DNA of 64,000 bases, taken from contig NZ_JAUYFF010000001.1 of NCBI RefSeq assembly GCF_030691015.1, forward strand, positions 496,001 to 560,000, written 5' to 3'. The notes beneath the pieces are model-generated. The model saw nothing but the letters and a program-made list of their open reading frames with translations. It searched no databases and had not been told where the DNA came from. The first letter of the stretch is position 1; each line of letters opens with the position of its first letter. The position numbers were made by a program, and so were the translations under genes. Shown here piece after piece: positions 5,660 to 10,374 of the stretch. The stretch is from Sulfuricurvum sp. (GTDB lineage Bacteria > Campylobacterota > Campylobacteria > Campylobacterales > Sulfurimonadaceae).

Positions 5660-6660
5660 GTTCGGATCCTCTCTTTCGGTAGATACTGCGTTGCTTTTGC
5701 CAATAATGTCTCTAAAATATGGGTTTCAATTGCTTCCGGGTAGGTTGCCATCTCATCACGTACAATATAGGGGTAAAAGGCGACATCACTGCGGCGAAGT
5801 TTTTTAAGGGAACGAAGATGGCTTTGTGACATACGAAAACTCCCCAATGTGAGATGTTCGATTGCTTCGGGATCGATGGTTCTAAATATCTGTTCAATCA
5901 GTTCAGGGTAGAGTATAGCAAACTTCTCTGTATAGATAACAGGGTCGATGCAAAGTCGTACTTTCCAGCCTAATGTGATCGCTTCTGCCACCGCTCCCAG
6001 CCGTTTTTCGAGACTTGGGGTAGCGTGTTCGTAACGATCAACAATCTCTTGCGGAGAGAGAGTCCATGCCAGTGTTACCCTCGGATTTGGGAAAATCGAT
6101 CTAAGGGACTTGATATTAGCACTTTTAGTACGGATTTCAAGATAAAGATTTTCATACTGATCTGCAAAATCTAACCACATTGAAGTTTGGTGTGTTAGCG
6201 ATTCGATGGCAAGGGTATCGGTATCATAAGAGGTCGCTACAAGAGTAACTTTCCCTAAATAGGGGCGTAGTTGTTCAAACACATCTTCGAGGTTGACGAA
6301 TAACACCGTGTTAGCCGAGGGGTAAAGCCCCTGCAAATAGCAGTAATCACAGTCATACAAACACCCCTTAACGCTGGAGGCATAAAAAAACTGTTCATGT
6401 CCGAAGCCGTCGCTGTATTGGCTCCCTTCATGCAAAAACTTCCCCTCTTTTCGGGCGAGAATTAGTTTTTTAGAATGGCTTTGCGCCGCAAAACTTTGTG
6501 AGGGTCGGTTAAACACCTCTTTGTAATGATCAATTAGTATAACCTGCGAGTCGGCAAATTTTCTCCGAATCATTTGGCTCTGCGGGTGATCCAGCACATC
6601 TCGTTCGATGTAGAGATGAGAAAAAAGCTTAGGCGGTGAGGGTTGCGATGAGTTCTTCAA
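5641..6660 (-). CDS. Spore photoproduct lyase-like radical SAM protein
   Basis: SplB/SPL-family protein of about 339 aa. It has the radical SAM cluster GCLYDCDYCY (CxxxCxxC), and the family N-terminal signature HLYIERDVLDHP. SPL enzymes repair the UV photoproduct of stacked thymines, in spore-formers. A GTG at 6678 would give 345 aa. I prefer the TTG at 6660 because AAAGGAG lies 8 nt before it. Either start overlaps the upstream nucleosidase gene. The cysteine that donates hydrogen in Bacillus SplB appears to be replaced by tyrosine in the block before ESLTHQ, so the true reaction may differ. The only later cysteine I see is in RLCIDPV. Confidence 0.75.
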   Translation of the reverse strand: MKNSSQPSPPKLFSHLYIERDVLDHPQSQMIRRKFADSQVILIDHYKEVFNRPSQSFAAQSHSKKLILARKEGKFLHEGSQYSDGFGHEQFFYASSVKGCLYDCDYCYLQGLYPSANTVLFVNLEDVFEQLRPYLGKVTLVATSYDTDTLAIESLTHQTSMWLDFADQYENLYLEIRTKSANIKSLRSIFPNPRVTLAWTLSPQEIVDRYEHATPSLEKRLGAVAEAITLGWKVRLCIDPVIYTEKFAILYPELIEQIFRTIDPEAIEHLTLGSFRMSQSHLRSLKKLRRSDVAFYPYIVRDEMATYPEAIETHILETLLAKATQYLPKERIRTWQRQS

Positions 6661-7414
6661 GCAATAAGCTCCTTTCACGTTTGGAGTTAGGAATCAGAAG
6701 ATTTAGGGGGGGAAATTTCCCTTTGTTTCTGAATCGAAAATACGTGAGCGCATCTTCGAGAGCGTCTCCTTGGCTTTTCGTAAAACGAGTCTTAAAAACA
6801 TCGATTGTATCCCGTTCATCTGCGGAAAAGAAAGACGACTCTTTCTGTATAGCGCGCAATCTTGAGATAAGGGTATCCAAGGTATCCACGTGAGAACGGA
6901 GAAGTTCCATAACCCCCTCTTTCGTCACGAGTTCGGGAGTACAGTGATCGGAGACAATTTTAAGAAATGCCATTTGATGAAGCTTGAAAAAACGGGATGC
7001 GGCTTGAAAAATCGCACTGCTCTCCATATCAACCGGATAGTCGCCGCATAGTGATTGGGGGGTATCGACACACCTCATCGACGTTTCACGGAGAAGATGG
7101 GAGTAAAGAATATCGGGATAATAGCGTCGATCTCCATCCAAAATTTGATGGATCAGCAACGCTTCGCCGATTCTGTATTCTAAAGGTGCTCCGCAGATTC
7201 CGATATTGATCAAAATATCCTTATCTTCGGGAATCCGCCATCCCAACAACGCGCTCAATGCCATCAGTGCATTCGTTCTCCCCATTCCGCTCACCAACAA
7301 CACCATCTCTTCGCTTCGATAGAGGGTGTAGGGGAGCGACGTATCGCGTTTAAGACGATAATATTCACACAAAGGTCTCGCTTCGGCATCGAGTGCAGTG
7401 ATAAGGTAAATCAT
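6629..7414 (-). CDS. Nucleoside phosphorylase / MTA-SAH nucleosidase-like protein
   Basis: 261-aa protein of the PNP/UDP family: MIYLITALDAEARPL at the start, GMGRTNA and INIGICGAP in the phosphate/ribose region, and DMESSAIFQAA, the ribose-binding ME motif. It could split methylthioadenosine, adenosylhomocysteine or another nucleoside. The C-terminal 80 residues, rich in Arg/Lys and phenylalanine, are less conserved. Head gene of a three-gene minus-strand cluster with the SPL-like protein and the SDR. Confidence 0.72.
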   Translation of the reverse strand: MIYLITALDAEARPLCEYYRLKRDTSLPYTLYRSEEMVLLVSGMGRTNALMALSALLGWRIPEDKDILINIGICGAPLEYRIGEALLIHQILDGDRRYYPDILYSHLLRETSMRCVDTPQSLCGDYPVDMESSAIFQAASRFFKLHQMAFLKIVSDHCTPELVTKEGVMELLRSHVDTLDTLISRLRAIQKESSFFSADERDTIDVFKTRFTKSQGDALEDALTYFRFRNKGKFPPLNLLIPNSKRERSLLLEELIATLTA

Positions 7415-7470: not shown

Positions 7471-7570
7471 CTCTTCTAGACCTGTGCAAGGGCATGGATG
7501 GACATCGTGTCAGGGTAGGAATACAGCAGCACACCCGTCCATGTTTTGTGCCGCAGGTATCTGGGAGAGC
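7471..7570 (+). ncRNA. ffs: Signal recognition particle 4.5S RNA
   Basis: The core GTGTCAGG...AGGAA...CAGCAGCACAC is the symmetric and asymmetric loop region bound by Ffh. Flanking arms pair: ACCTG with CAGGT, CATGGA..GG with CC.TCCATG, and the outer CTCTTC with GGGAGAG. The hairpin of about 100 nt is the short bacterial type without an Alu domain. It lies between divergent and convergent neighbours in an otherwise empty gap, with its own promoter. Confidence 0.88.
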
Positions 7571-7578
7571 CACTTCAT

Positions 7579-8106
7579 TTAACTTCTTTTTACTTTATCC
7601 CCAAAATTCTTCATAAATTTTTCAATCTTTGGTGCAATCACGACATGACAGTATCCTTGCGTCGGATGTTCACTGTAATAATTTTGATGATACCCCTCTG
7701 CCTCATAAAATTCAGGAGCAGGCGATAGCTCGGTCACGATAGGAGTACTGAGCGATTTTTGCGCCTTTGCCATAGAGTATTCTGCTTTTTCTTTTTGCTC
7801 TGCATTGTAGTAATAAATGACGGAACGATATTGTGTCCCACGGTCAGCTCCTTGGGCATTAAGGGTGGTCGGATCATGAATCGCCCAAAAAATATCTAAA
7901 ATTGCTTCATACGAAATAATCTTGGGGTCATACGTAATCTCAACGACCTCCGCATGCCCCGTAGCTCCACTGCACACTTGCTCATAACTAGGGTTCTTAC
8001 GCGAGCCTCCGGCATAACCGCTGAGTGCGTGCTGAACCCCCTCAAGACGATTATAGACCGCTTCGATACACCAAAAACATCCGCCGCCCACTAAAGCTTT
8101 TTCCAT
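7579..8106 (-). CDS. msrA: Peptide methionine sulfoxide reductase MsrA
   Basis: MsrA of 175 aa reduces the S-epimer of methionine sulfoxide in oxidised proteins. The catalytic GCFWC motif is at residues 9-13 and YAGGSRKNPSYEQVCSG follows, as expected. It ends shortly after the SRP RNA on the opposite strand. No MsrB domain is fused. Confidence 0.95.
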   Translation of the reverse strand: MEKALVGGGCFWCIEAVYNRLEGVQHALSGYAGGSRKNPSYEQVCSGATGHAEVVEITYDPKIISYEAILDIFWAIHDPTTLNAQGADRGTQYRSVIYYYNAEQKEKAEYSMAKAQKSLSTPIVTELSPAPEFYEAEGYHQNYYSEHPTQGYCHVVIAPKIEKFMKNFGDKVKRS

Positions 8107-8201
8107 GGTTCCCGCTCTTTCTCTTTTTTGGAGTGATTATCTACCCATTCCACTGTAAGGGTGTTGAATAAAGAGGATTGCTTTGAGCCTTTAAGTTACC
8201 G

Positions 8202-8216
8202 TTCCGTAACGATTCA
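8202..8216 (+). promoter_or_regulatory. Putative response-regulator box 1
   Basis: TTCCGTAACGATTCA. It matches 12 of 15 positions with a box at 8393-8407. It ends 17 nt before a -10-like GTAAAT (8234-8239) and 42 nt before the 26-codon ORF start. The overlapping GTTAC-N6-GTAAC at 8195-8210 is a small dyad. Function is inference from the repeat and the matching spacing. Confidence 0.5.
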
Positions 8217-8257
8217 CCGATAAACTGCCGTTTGTAAATCTAAAGAAGGAGAACCCA

Positions 8258-8338
8258 ATGGAAAAAATGACACCGTTAGAAAAAACCCTTGTCAAAAAAT
8301 TACGCCGATCCAAACGCGCCAGCTGGATGGTTGACTAA
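8258..8338 (+). CDS. Small cationic ORF, 26 aa
   Basis: Starts MEKMTPLEKTLVKK and ends SKRASWMVD. It has five Lys and three Arg against three acidic residues (net about +5), a single Trp near the end and no hydrophobic membrane span. AAGAAGGAG lies 7 nt before the ATG, a strong ribosome-binding site. It sits alone in a 342-nt gap between msrA and the response regulator and shares with the latter an upstream box at identical spacing. I do not recognise it. Translation is inferred only. Confidence 0.5.
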   Translation: MEKMTPLEKTLVKKLRRSKRASWMVD

Positions 8339-8347
8339 AACTCTTTT

Positions 8348-8364
8348 TTGCTCACAGTGAGCAA
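8348..8364. repeat. Perfect 17-nt palindrome between the small ORF and the response regulator
   Basis: TTGCTCACAGTGAGCAA, 8-nt arms around one base. It starts 10 nt after the small ORF stop and 85 nt before the response regulator. It lacks a downstream T-run on either strand, so it may be an operator or a weak terminator of the small gene. Confidence 0.45.
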
Positions 8365-8392
8365 TAACCCCTCCCAAATGCCACCCTTTCCC

Positions 8393-8407
8393 TTCCGTTA
8401 ACATTCA
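8393..8407 (+). promoter_or_regulatory. Putative response-regulator box 2
   Basis: TTCCGTTAACATTCA, followed 17 nt later by a -10-like GATAAT (8425-8430), and 42 nt before the ATG at 8449. The same layout occurs at 8202-8239. It occupies the -35 region, as expected for a class II activator site; autoregulation by the downstream regulator is inferred. Confidence 0.5.
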
Positions 8408-8448
8408 TTACGTCATACTTTCAGGATAATACCTTTATAGGACTACCA

Positions 8449-9114
8449 ATGCTTCAAGCCCTCATGGTCGAAGATGATCCGGATATCACAACTTTATTAG
8501 TTAACTACCTCAAAAATTACGGAATTGCACTCAATGCCGTTTCCACTCCATCGGAGGGTTTACGTCTATTAGATAGCGATCATTTTGATCTCATTATTTT
8601 GGATTTGACGCTGCCCCAGATGGATGGATTGGAGCTGTGCAAAATGATCCGTCAAAAAACCGATATCCCTATCCTCATTTCAAGTGCGCGAAGCGATATC
8701 AATGATAAAGTGATCGGACTGGAGTACGGAGCGGACGACTATCTCCCCAAACCGTATGAGCCGCGTGAGCTGATTGCACGGATCAAAAGTGTTCTACGCC
8801 GTTATCGTCCTACAATGGAGAAAAAAAATAAACTCTTTATTCTTAACGAAAAAGAGCAGAGCATTCTCTATAACGGCTCGTCCCTTTCCCTCACACGTGC
8901 TGAATACGAGCTATTATCCCTCTTTATCCTCCGTCCCAATCAGACACTAAGTCGTGACTTTCTCTCTAATAATTCTGAAGCAATTTCCTATGAAAGTTCA
9001 GCACGAACGATCGATGTCATTATTAGCCGTTTACGACAAAAAATCGAAAAAGATCCAAAAAATCCCCGCTTCATTCACTCTATTCGGGGAAGCGGCTATC
9101 GGTTTTCAGGATAA
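8449..9114 (+). CDS. OmpR-family response regulator
   Basis: 221 aa. Receiver domain (about 1-115): acidic pocket EDD near residue 8, phosphorylated Asp in LIILDLTLPQMDG, conserved Ser in ISSAR, and Lys in LPKPYEP. The C-terminal winged helix (about 130-221) contains LTRAEYELL and RTIDVIISRLRQKIE...IRGSGYRF. Four nt separate it from the kinase gene, so they form one operon. The sequence layout resembles the ArsRS pair of Helicobacter/Campylobacter, but the signal is unknown. Confidence 0.92.
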   Translation: MLQALMVEDDPDITTLLVNYLKNYGIALNAVSTPSEGLRLLDSDHFDLIILDLTLPQMDGLELCKMIRQKTDIPILISSARSDINDKVIGLEYGADDYLPKPYEPRELIARIKSVLRRYRPTMEKKNKLFILNEKEQSILYNGSSLSLTRAEYELLSLFILRPNQTLSRDFLSNNSEAISYESSARTIDVIISRLRQKIEKDPKNPRFIHSIRGSGYRFSG

Positions 9115-9117
9115 GTA

Positions 9118-10374
9118 ATGACGCATAGTATTTTTCTCCGTATTACCCTCTTTTTTCTCGTCACCTTTATCGCGATGGGATTAGGTTTTGTTCTCTTGCA
9201 ACAAAAACTGGCCCAAGAGTATACCCATAGATTAGAAAGTGAAGCGGGTAATATCCTTTTGGTTTTACGCAAAAGTGTCCCGCTCGCTCCCCCTATGCGC
9301 AGATCCTATTTGCAAGAGCACGGTTACAGCGTTGCCGAACCTCACCCTGATTTAATCAAAACACTCAAAAATGCCCTTACCGTTATCCCCAAAAACTATC
9401 CTGAGGAGATTAAATCCTCACTCCATGAGGGACGAATACAAATTTTGAGAGATGAGAATCATCTCTACATTTACTTAACAAAAGCCTCACCGCCTCTGTT
9501 GGTCATCAAAACTGATGCGGCAAAACAATCCCATTGGAGTGAAGCACTTTTGATCTCCTTGATAGTGGCGCTACTGCTTCTGTATTGGTTCATCATTAAA
9601 ACTCTTTTTCCTCTAAAAACCATCACCCAAGGAATAGCACAGTATGGTGCATCGGGGATTTATACCCCTATGCATAGCAAAAAGAAGGATGAAATCTCTC
9701 TCGTTTCCCGCGCACTGGACAGTGCCATGGAGAAGAATCAAGCCCTGCTCGAAGCACGCAAGCTCTTTTTACGTAACATCATGCATGAGTTAAAAACTCC
9801 GATCACCGTCGGTAAACTTTCTCTTCCGTTTATAAAAAAGTCTGAAGAGAAATCGATTTTGGAGCGGGCATTTTTTCGGATGGAACACCTAATCGCAGAG
9901 CTGGTTCGCTTAGAGCAGATCACATCGGGCGCACTCGCTCCCCATCTACAAACATGCGATCCTAAAGTTCTTCTTGAGAGGGCAAAAGCGTTGCTTTTTC
10001 TACACGATGACCCCATCGATCTCTCATTAGACGGAACACTTATTGTCGCCGATTGCGAGGTCATGGTTACCGTCTTTAAAAACCTCATCGATAATGCCAT
10101 TAAATACAGCTCTGAGGGGAAAGTGAGTGTTCTCCAAAAAGGAGAGAGGTTTCTTTTCTCTAATTTGGGAGAACCTTGGGGAGAGGAGTGTACGCTGGAG
10201 ACATTGAGCGAACCGTTTTTGCATCATCATGAAAATACGAACAGTTTCGGATTAGGACTCTATATTATTAAATCTATCATCGATGCCCACAACTTCACCC
10301 TCAACTATCGGTATGAGAACGGGAGTCATTGCTTTGAGGTGGTATGCTTGAACCCCCTTTTATCTCTCGATTAA
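9118..10374 (+). CDS. Sensor histidine kinase, partner of the upstream regulator
   Basis: 418 aa. First membrane helix at about 7-26, a periplasmic domain of about 115 residues, and a second helix around 142-162 (LLISLIVALLLLYWFIIKTL), then a HAMP-like linker. The phosphorylated His is in MHELKTPITVGK. The ATPase domain shows FKNLIDNAIKYSS (N box) and FGLGLYIIKSI (G box). The 3' end overlaps by 74 nt, tail to tail, with the convergent sensor kinase gene. Confidence 0.9.
   Translation: MTHSIFLRITLFFLVTFIAMGLGFVLLQQKLAQEYTHRLESEAGNILLVLRKSVPLAPPMRRSYLQEHGYSVAEPHPDLIKTLKNALTVIPKNYPEEIKSSLHEGRIQILRDENHLYIYLTKASPPLLVIKTDAAKQSHWSEALLISLIVALLLLYWFIIKTLFPLKTITQGIAQYGASGIYTPMHSKKKDEISLVSRALDSAMEKNQALLEARKLFLRNIMHELKTPITVGKLSLPFIKKSEEKSILERAFFRMEHLIAELVRLEQITSGALAPHLQTCDPKVLLERAKALLFLHDDPIDLSLDGTLIVADCEVMVTVFKNLIDNAIKYSSEGKVSVLQKGERFLFSNLGEPWGEECTLETLSEPFLHHHENTNSFGLGLYIIKSIIDAHNFTLNYRYENGSHCFEVVCLNPLLSLD

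Follow-up and report, generated by a model that had tools for sequence, protein, structure and literature searches.

Organization of the locus

Within the window, the 64,000-nt stretch of Sulfuricurvum DNA analyzed here, a 26-codon ORF (MEKMTPLEKTLVKKLRRSKRASWMVD plus stop; positions 8258-8338, forward strand) lies between msrA (7579-8106, reverse strand; TIGR00401, 199 bits), which is transcribed divergently from it, and a two-component system. Upstream of the small ORF, all on the forward strand, are a Pho box (GTTAC-CGTTCC-GTAAC, 8195-8210) with two half-sites in 11-bp register, the conserved -10 hexamer TAAACT (8221-8226) exactly 10 nt 3' of this box, and the strong ribosome-binding site AAGGAG (8246-8251), which is AAGGAG/AGGAGG-like in nearly all genus copies. 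A hairpin (TTGCTCACAGTGAGCAA; 8348-8364, forward strand; -7.4 kcal/mol) directly follows the ORF; its stem is retained despite base changes in several relatives (z of about -2.3 to -3.4 in five genomes), and no U-run was found behind it. The two-component system, also on the forward strand, consists of an OmpR-family response regulator that is not PhoB (8449-9114) and an ArsS-family sensor histidine kinase (9118-10374; NF038389, 312 bits, cut-off 250), preceded by a promoter element at 8398-8419 in which TTAACAT is followed by the -10 hexamer CATACT (8414-8419), 11 nt past TTAAC. On the far side of msrA, between it and the gene at 6629-7414, a bacterial small SRP RNA is encoded at 7473-7570 on the forward strand (RF00169, 60.4 bits). 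Within the genus, msrA adjoins the small ORF at most loci and is its commonest neighbor; the msrA of the window has its nearest named relatives in Sulfuricurvum. In several other genera (loci L053, L054, L055, L062 and L067), a gene resembling sulfide:quinone reductase, a DUF6858-like gene or both are found close to the small ORF, and msrA is absent within 1.5 kb.

The original prediction for this locus was built on two 15-mers, TTCCGTAACGATTCA (8202-8216, box 1) and TTCCGTTAACATTCA (8393-8407, box 2), read as sites of one activator serving both the small ORF and the regulator. Both are present and agree at 12 of 15 positions, each is separated from its ATG by 41 nt (the A of the ATG being the 42nd base), and GTAAAT and GATAAT are located 17 nt after boxes 1 and 2, respectively. 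The description of the ORF (26 aa, net charge +5, AAGGAG just 5') and the placement of the regulator ATG at 8449 were likewise accurate.

A conserved family of tiny basic proteins

The small ORF is intact and free of stops in 41 of 41 Sulfuricurvum genomes, with identities of 56-100%, and members were identified in 60 of 228 genomes, spanning 8 of the 18 genera of the taxonomic family to which the window genome belongs. The encoded proteins are 25-46 aa long and share the consensus MxKxSxLEKxxLKKLRxSKRASWMVx, in which Leu, Trp and Met are invariant beyond the start Met. Differences fall mostly in third codon positions (3891, 2203 and 7249 at first, second and third positions, respectively), and pN (0.16) is well below pS (0.55; pN/pS 0.29), a codon pattern indicating that the small ORF is under purifying selection acting at the level of the protein. 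Judged by its sequence, the small ORF is a genuine gene; its product is one of a group of tiny basic proteins, found in Sulfuricurvum and its relatives, that form a family not named before.

In these proteins a short predicted helix (LEKxxLKKL) precedes a basic stretch and the invariant Trp-Met. The window copy has a net charge of +5 and an amphipathic stretch. Most members checked have net charges of +5 to +9, and the helical moment is in most cases no higher than that of shuffled sequences. An AlphaFold model of a 40-aa homologue contains a single short helix at residues 16-27 (mean pLDDT 77) and is not large enough for a fold search to be informative. Sequence searches of Pfam, NCBIfam and PDB with the small protein returned no convincing match, the Pfam profile of DUF1127 matched none of 27 members at E values up to 10, and the best hit of the family profile outside the taxonomic family of the window genome was partial (E of about 0.002) and was treated as noise. 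No published description of the small protein was found in the freely readable text covered by our search, which excludes most subscription papers.

A Pho box precedes the small ORF

Pho boxes have been defined as two direct repeats of 11 bp (PMC4415409). Box 1 constitutes the second half of such an arrangement, which together with the -10 hexamer reads GTTAC-N6-GTAAC-N10-TAAACT (8195-8226); the Pho box, an activator box of the OmpR-family type, overlaps the first part of box 1. The layout GTWAY-N6-GTAAY-N10-TANNNT was found 5' of the small ORF in all 41 Sulfuricurvum genomes, compared with 0.006 in sequences shuffled in two-base blocks, and the 10-nt gap from box to -10 is constant in all 41. 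Among 19 homologues from outside the genus, collected by protein similarity alone, 17 have the layout with at most two half-site mismatches (0.2 in shuffles) and nine have it without a mismatch; in two of the non-genus copies (L194 and L197) the -10 is missing at the expected distance. When the window was scanned with a matrix derived only from pstC and PiT sites, leaving out the small-ORF sites, positions 8195-8210 ranked first of 127,970. Counting against a place in the Pho regulon, the small ORF is usually located away from Pho genes, and two draft genus genomes (G022 and G039) keep the ORF and its box but show no clear pstC.

The same repeat precedes established phosphate genes of these bacteria. 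It was identified upstream of pstC at 29 of 30 genus loci and upstream of PiT at 12 of the 14 loci whose start was located by script. A pattern search of the window genome recovered eight sites, including those of the small ORF, PiT (PF01384), a porin-like gene beside pstS, pstC and olsF (NF052615, 622 bits). With a pattern allowing GTTAY as the second half-site, further sites were found for pstS (GTAAT CATTTC GTTAC CCGAGGCTTC TACAAT) and for phoU-phoB-phoR (GTAAT CTCACG GTTAT AAACCATTGG TATAAT). These regulon sites come from pattern searches only and the list is incomplete. Across the whole genome, the bare pattern showed no enrichment over a reversed control (eight sites versus seven); thus, the case is carried by position and conservation. 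The small ORF has both tandem 11-bp half-sites like those preceding recognized Pho genes in its own genome and a fixed distance from box to -10.

The genome also encodes the corresponding regulators. At 619-626 kb of contig C4, phoU and the genes for a PhoB-like regulator and a PhoR-like kinase lie together with pstC, pstA and pstB; the top match of this regulator is TIGR02154 (PhoB), at 195 bits, below the model cut-off of 296. A regulator near PiT on contig 1 was considered as PhoB and rejected as KdpE-like.

Several genes elsewhere in the genome carry similar sites. Three 11-bp Pho half-sites precede the gene for an OlsF-type ornithine lipid synthase (L075, C4:640007), from which phosphate-controlled replacement of a membrane lipid is likely in this genome. 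The arrangement GTTAC-N6-GTAAC-N10-TAATCT upstream of a peroxiredoxin gene (L070, C4:312616) may reflect chance or an additional member of the Pho regulon. Beside pstS, a 473-aa protein with a signal-like start (L101, 6710-8131, reverse strand) is preceded by a Pho box and gave no Pfam or NCBIfam match; it is a candidate phosphate porin.

Box 2 and the neighboring two-component system

Box 2 has different properties. No GTAAY-like half-site is present 11 bp upstream of it, and its best score with the Pho matrix is -9.7. In the 11 genomes in which the small ORF and the regulator are adjacent, the regulator promoter keeps TTAACAT, with CATAMT 10-11 nt past TTAAC. The two boxes agree at 12, 11 and 10 of 15 positions in three closely related genomes and at 4-8 of 15 in the other eight, and the box-to-ATG distances of the two boxes diverge among relatives. 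Box 2 is not a Pho box but an element in its own right, belonging to the gene of the response regulator, and may be an autoregulatory site of that regulator. In five further genomes (L007, L009, L010, L012 and L019), the starts of the small ORF and the regulator are about 520 nt apart with coding-like extra sequence between them, and TTAACAT is missing within 100 nt of the regulator.

These comparisons leave a divided picture of the original prediction. Its view that an activator-like box lies upstream of each gene is borne out for box 1, part of the Pho box of the small ORF; box 2 is a different element. The proposed -10 hexamers, GTAAAT and GATAAT, are unconserved, the conserved ones being TAAACT for the ORF and CATACT for the regulator. 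That the shared layout exceeds chance is true of the window itself, where the in-register match has a probability of about 3e-5 (about 8e-4 for any equal-distance 15-mer matching as well), both values referring to two random ATG upstream regions of the window before the number of gene pairs scanned is counted; the match between the two boxes is not conserved in most relatives. A genome scan for the 15-mer, suggested as a check, yielded no further mismatch-free copy and two one-mismatch copies, both within coding sequence, and the 15-mer was rejected as a regulon motif. Conservation in relatives, another check, was found for the ORF and box 1 (41 of 41 genomes) and not for the placement of the ORF beside the regulator, an orthologue of which is present in only 18.

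Alternative explanations

A single regulator acting on both genes, namely the adjacent one activating its own gene as well as the small ORF by way of a common 15-bp box with the peptide serving the adjacent kinase, would account for the 12 of 15 match and equal spacing in the window genome, and for the proximity of the two genes (adjoining in 11 genomes, with starts about 520 nt apart in five more). We nevertheless consider it very unlikely. The regulator orthologue is absent from 23 of the 41 genus genomes, whereas the small ORF and its Pho box are present in all 41, and in regulator-free genomes the ORF mostly remains divergent to msrA. As a target of an ArsS-type system the small ORF therefore lacks both co-occurrence with the regulator (41 versus 18 genomes) and a conserved box common to the two genes (4-8 of 15 in most relatives), while box 1 is the same as the element before pst, PiT and olsF. 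Moreover, PhoB is encoded elsewhere, and the window response regulator is its distant paralogue (about 32% identical to the PhoB of the pst locus). Independence of the small ORF from the adjacent two-component system is strongly supported by these sequence comparisons. Slightly less remote, yet still improbable, is that the Pho box serves divergent msrA, or that the transcript is a small RNA with an incidental ORF. The frequency of msrA as divergent neighbor in the genus and the conserved hairpin behind the ORF are in keeping with this idea; the fixed order of box, -10, ribosome-binding site and ATG toward the ORF, the persistence of the box with the ORF in other genera lacking msrA within 1.5 kb, and a codon pattern of protein-level selection all argue against it. 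Least credible of all is an untranslated ORF with an accidental motif: the ORF is short, and one genome alone would not settle the matter, but the protein, ribosome-binding site and box are conserved over 60 genomes and 8 genera.

A more serious contender, to which we give somewhat less than even odds, concerns only the target of the small protein and shares the promoter reading favored here. In this case a Pho-regulon protein would act on RNA, the ribosome, polyphosphate or the membrane surface instead of Pho signalling, for example by slowing translation or aiding life with fewer phospholipids. The strong basic charge of most members, the amphipathic stretch of the window copy and the same box before olsF (ornithine lipid) are consistent with such a role, against which stand a net charge of only +1 in the g11 member L057, a helical moment that for most members checked does not exceed that of shuffles, and the lack of a sequence match to RNA-binding families.

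Proposed function in the phosphate response

The reading that we prefer, with a probability of roughly 85%, is that the product of the small ORF is a cytosolic Pho-regulon protein, short and basic, whose gene is switched on by PhoB at low phosphate. The box, its likeness to the boxes of known Pho genes, and the conservation of ORF, box and spacing are strongly supported by the genome comparisons; PhoB binding and induction at low phosphate we infer. According to this model, phosphate shortage would activate the PhoR-PhoB pair encoded in phoU-phoB-phoR-...-pstCAB. Phosphorylated PhoB, by analogy with what is known of this regulator, would then occupy the tandem 11-bp half-sites GTTAC-N6-GTAAC at the place of the -35, 10 nt before the -10, and recruit sigma70 polymerase, leading to a short transcript of the small ORF that is induced in low phosphate. 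Since its promoter has the same switch as the phosphate-uptake genes, the small protein is probably a phosphate-starvation product, made when phosphate is short and untied to the neighboring two-component system.

In the final step of the model, the product would bind PhoR, PhoU or Pst, the partner being acidic or associated with the membrane, and trim the activity of that partner, much as DUF1127 proteins act on PhoR; resting on analogy, this step is tentative and on balance doubtful, and a target in RNA, the ribosome or the membrane is about as likely as a partner in the Pho machinery. Slightly more doubtful still is the full proposal, in which an undescribed family of 25-46 aa, expressed from a Pho-box promoter, would set the response gain to phosphate in sulfur-oxidizing Campylobacterota by binding to PhoR, PhoU or the Pst transporter. 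The small protein is a candidate, open to experiment, for the control of phosphate signalling by small proteins in bacteria for which we found no paper on the subject. A small protein that is strictly conserved and falls into no known family can now be assigned to a defined physiological response, and the consensus GTAAY-N6-GTAAY-N10-TANNNT for Sulfuricurvum and its relatives offers a means of finding the remaining members of the regulon.

Comparison with known systems

In the related campylobacterotan Campylobacter jejuni, the phosphate two-component system PhosS-PhosR controls pst genes (Wosten 2006, as cited in PMC3197622), resembling the system proposed here; the small-protein family, in contrast, was not found outside the taxonomic family of the window genome. 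The small-ORF promoter shares with described Pho regulon promoters (PMC4415409) an 11-bp-period repeat that replaces the -35 and a fixed distance to the -10, as well as a box common to pst genes, the phoBR operon, PiT and olsF. The half-sites differ, being CTGTCAT in E. coli and GTAAY here, with GTTAC as the first half-site in the window.

The closest functional parallel is with the small basic DUF1127 proteins, which in Agrobacterium and E. coli are reported to bind PhoR and damp the Pho response (PMC12501420). Like E. coli YjiS and the Agrobacterium SDPs, the proteins described here are short (DUF1127 proteins often have fewer than 50 aa), basic, helical and linked to phosphate control. However, sequence comparison connects the family to no known PhoR-binding protein and none of 27 members matches the DUF1127 profile, so the likeness is one of functional analogy only. 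DUF1127 comprises two arginine-rich helices, whereas a single short helix is predicted for the small protein, which has Trp-Met at its end, and its gene, unlike those of the DUF1127 small proteins, itself carries a Pho box. If the small protein does bind a Pho-signalling partner, it would represent an independent counterpart of the DUF1127-PhoR connection.
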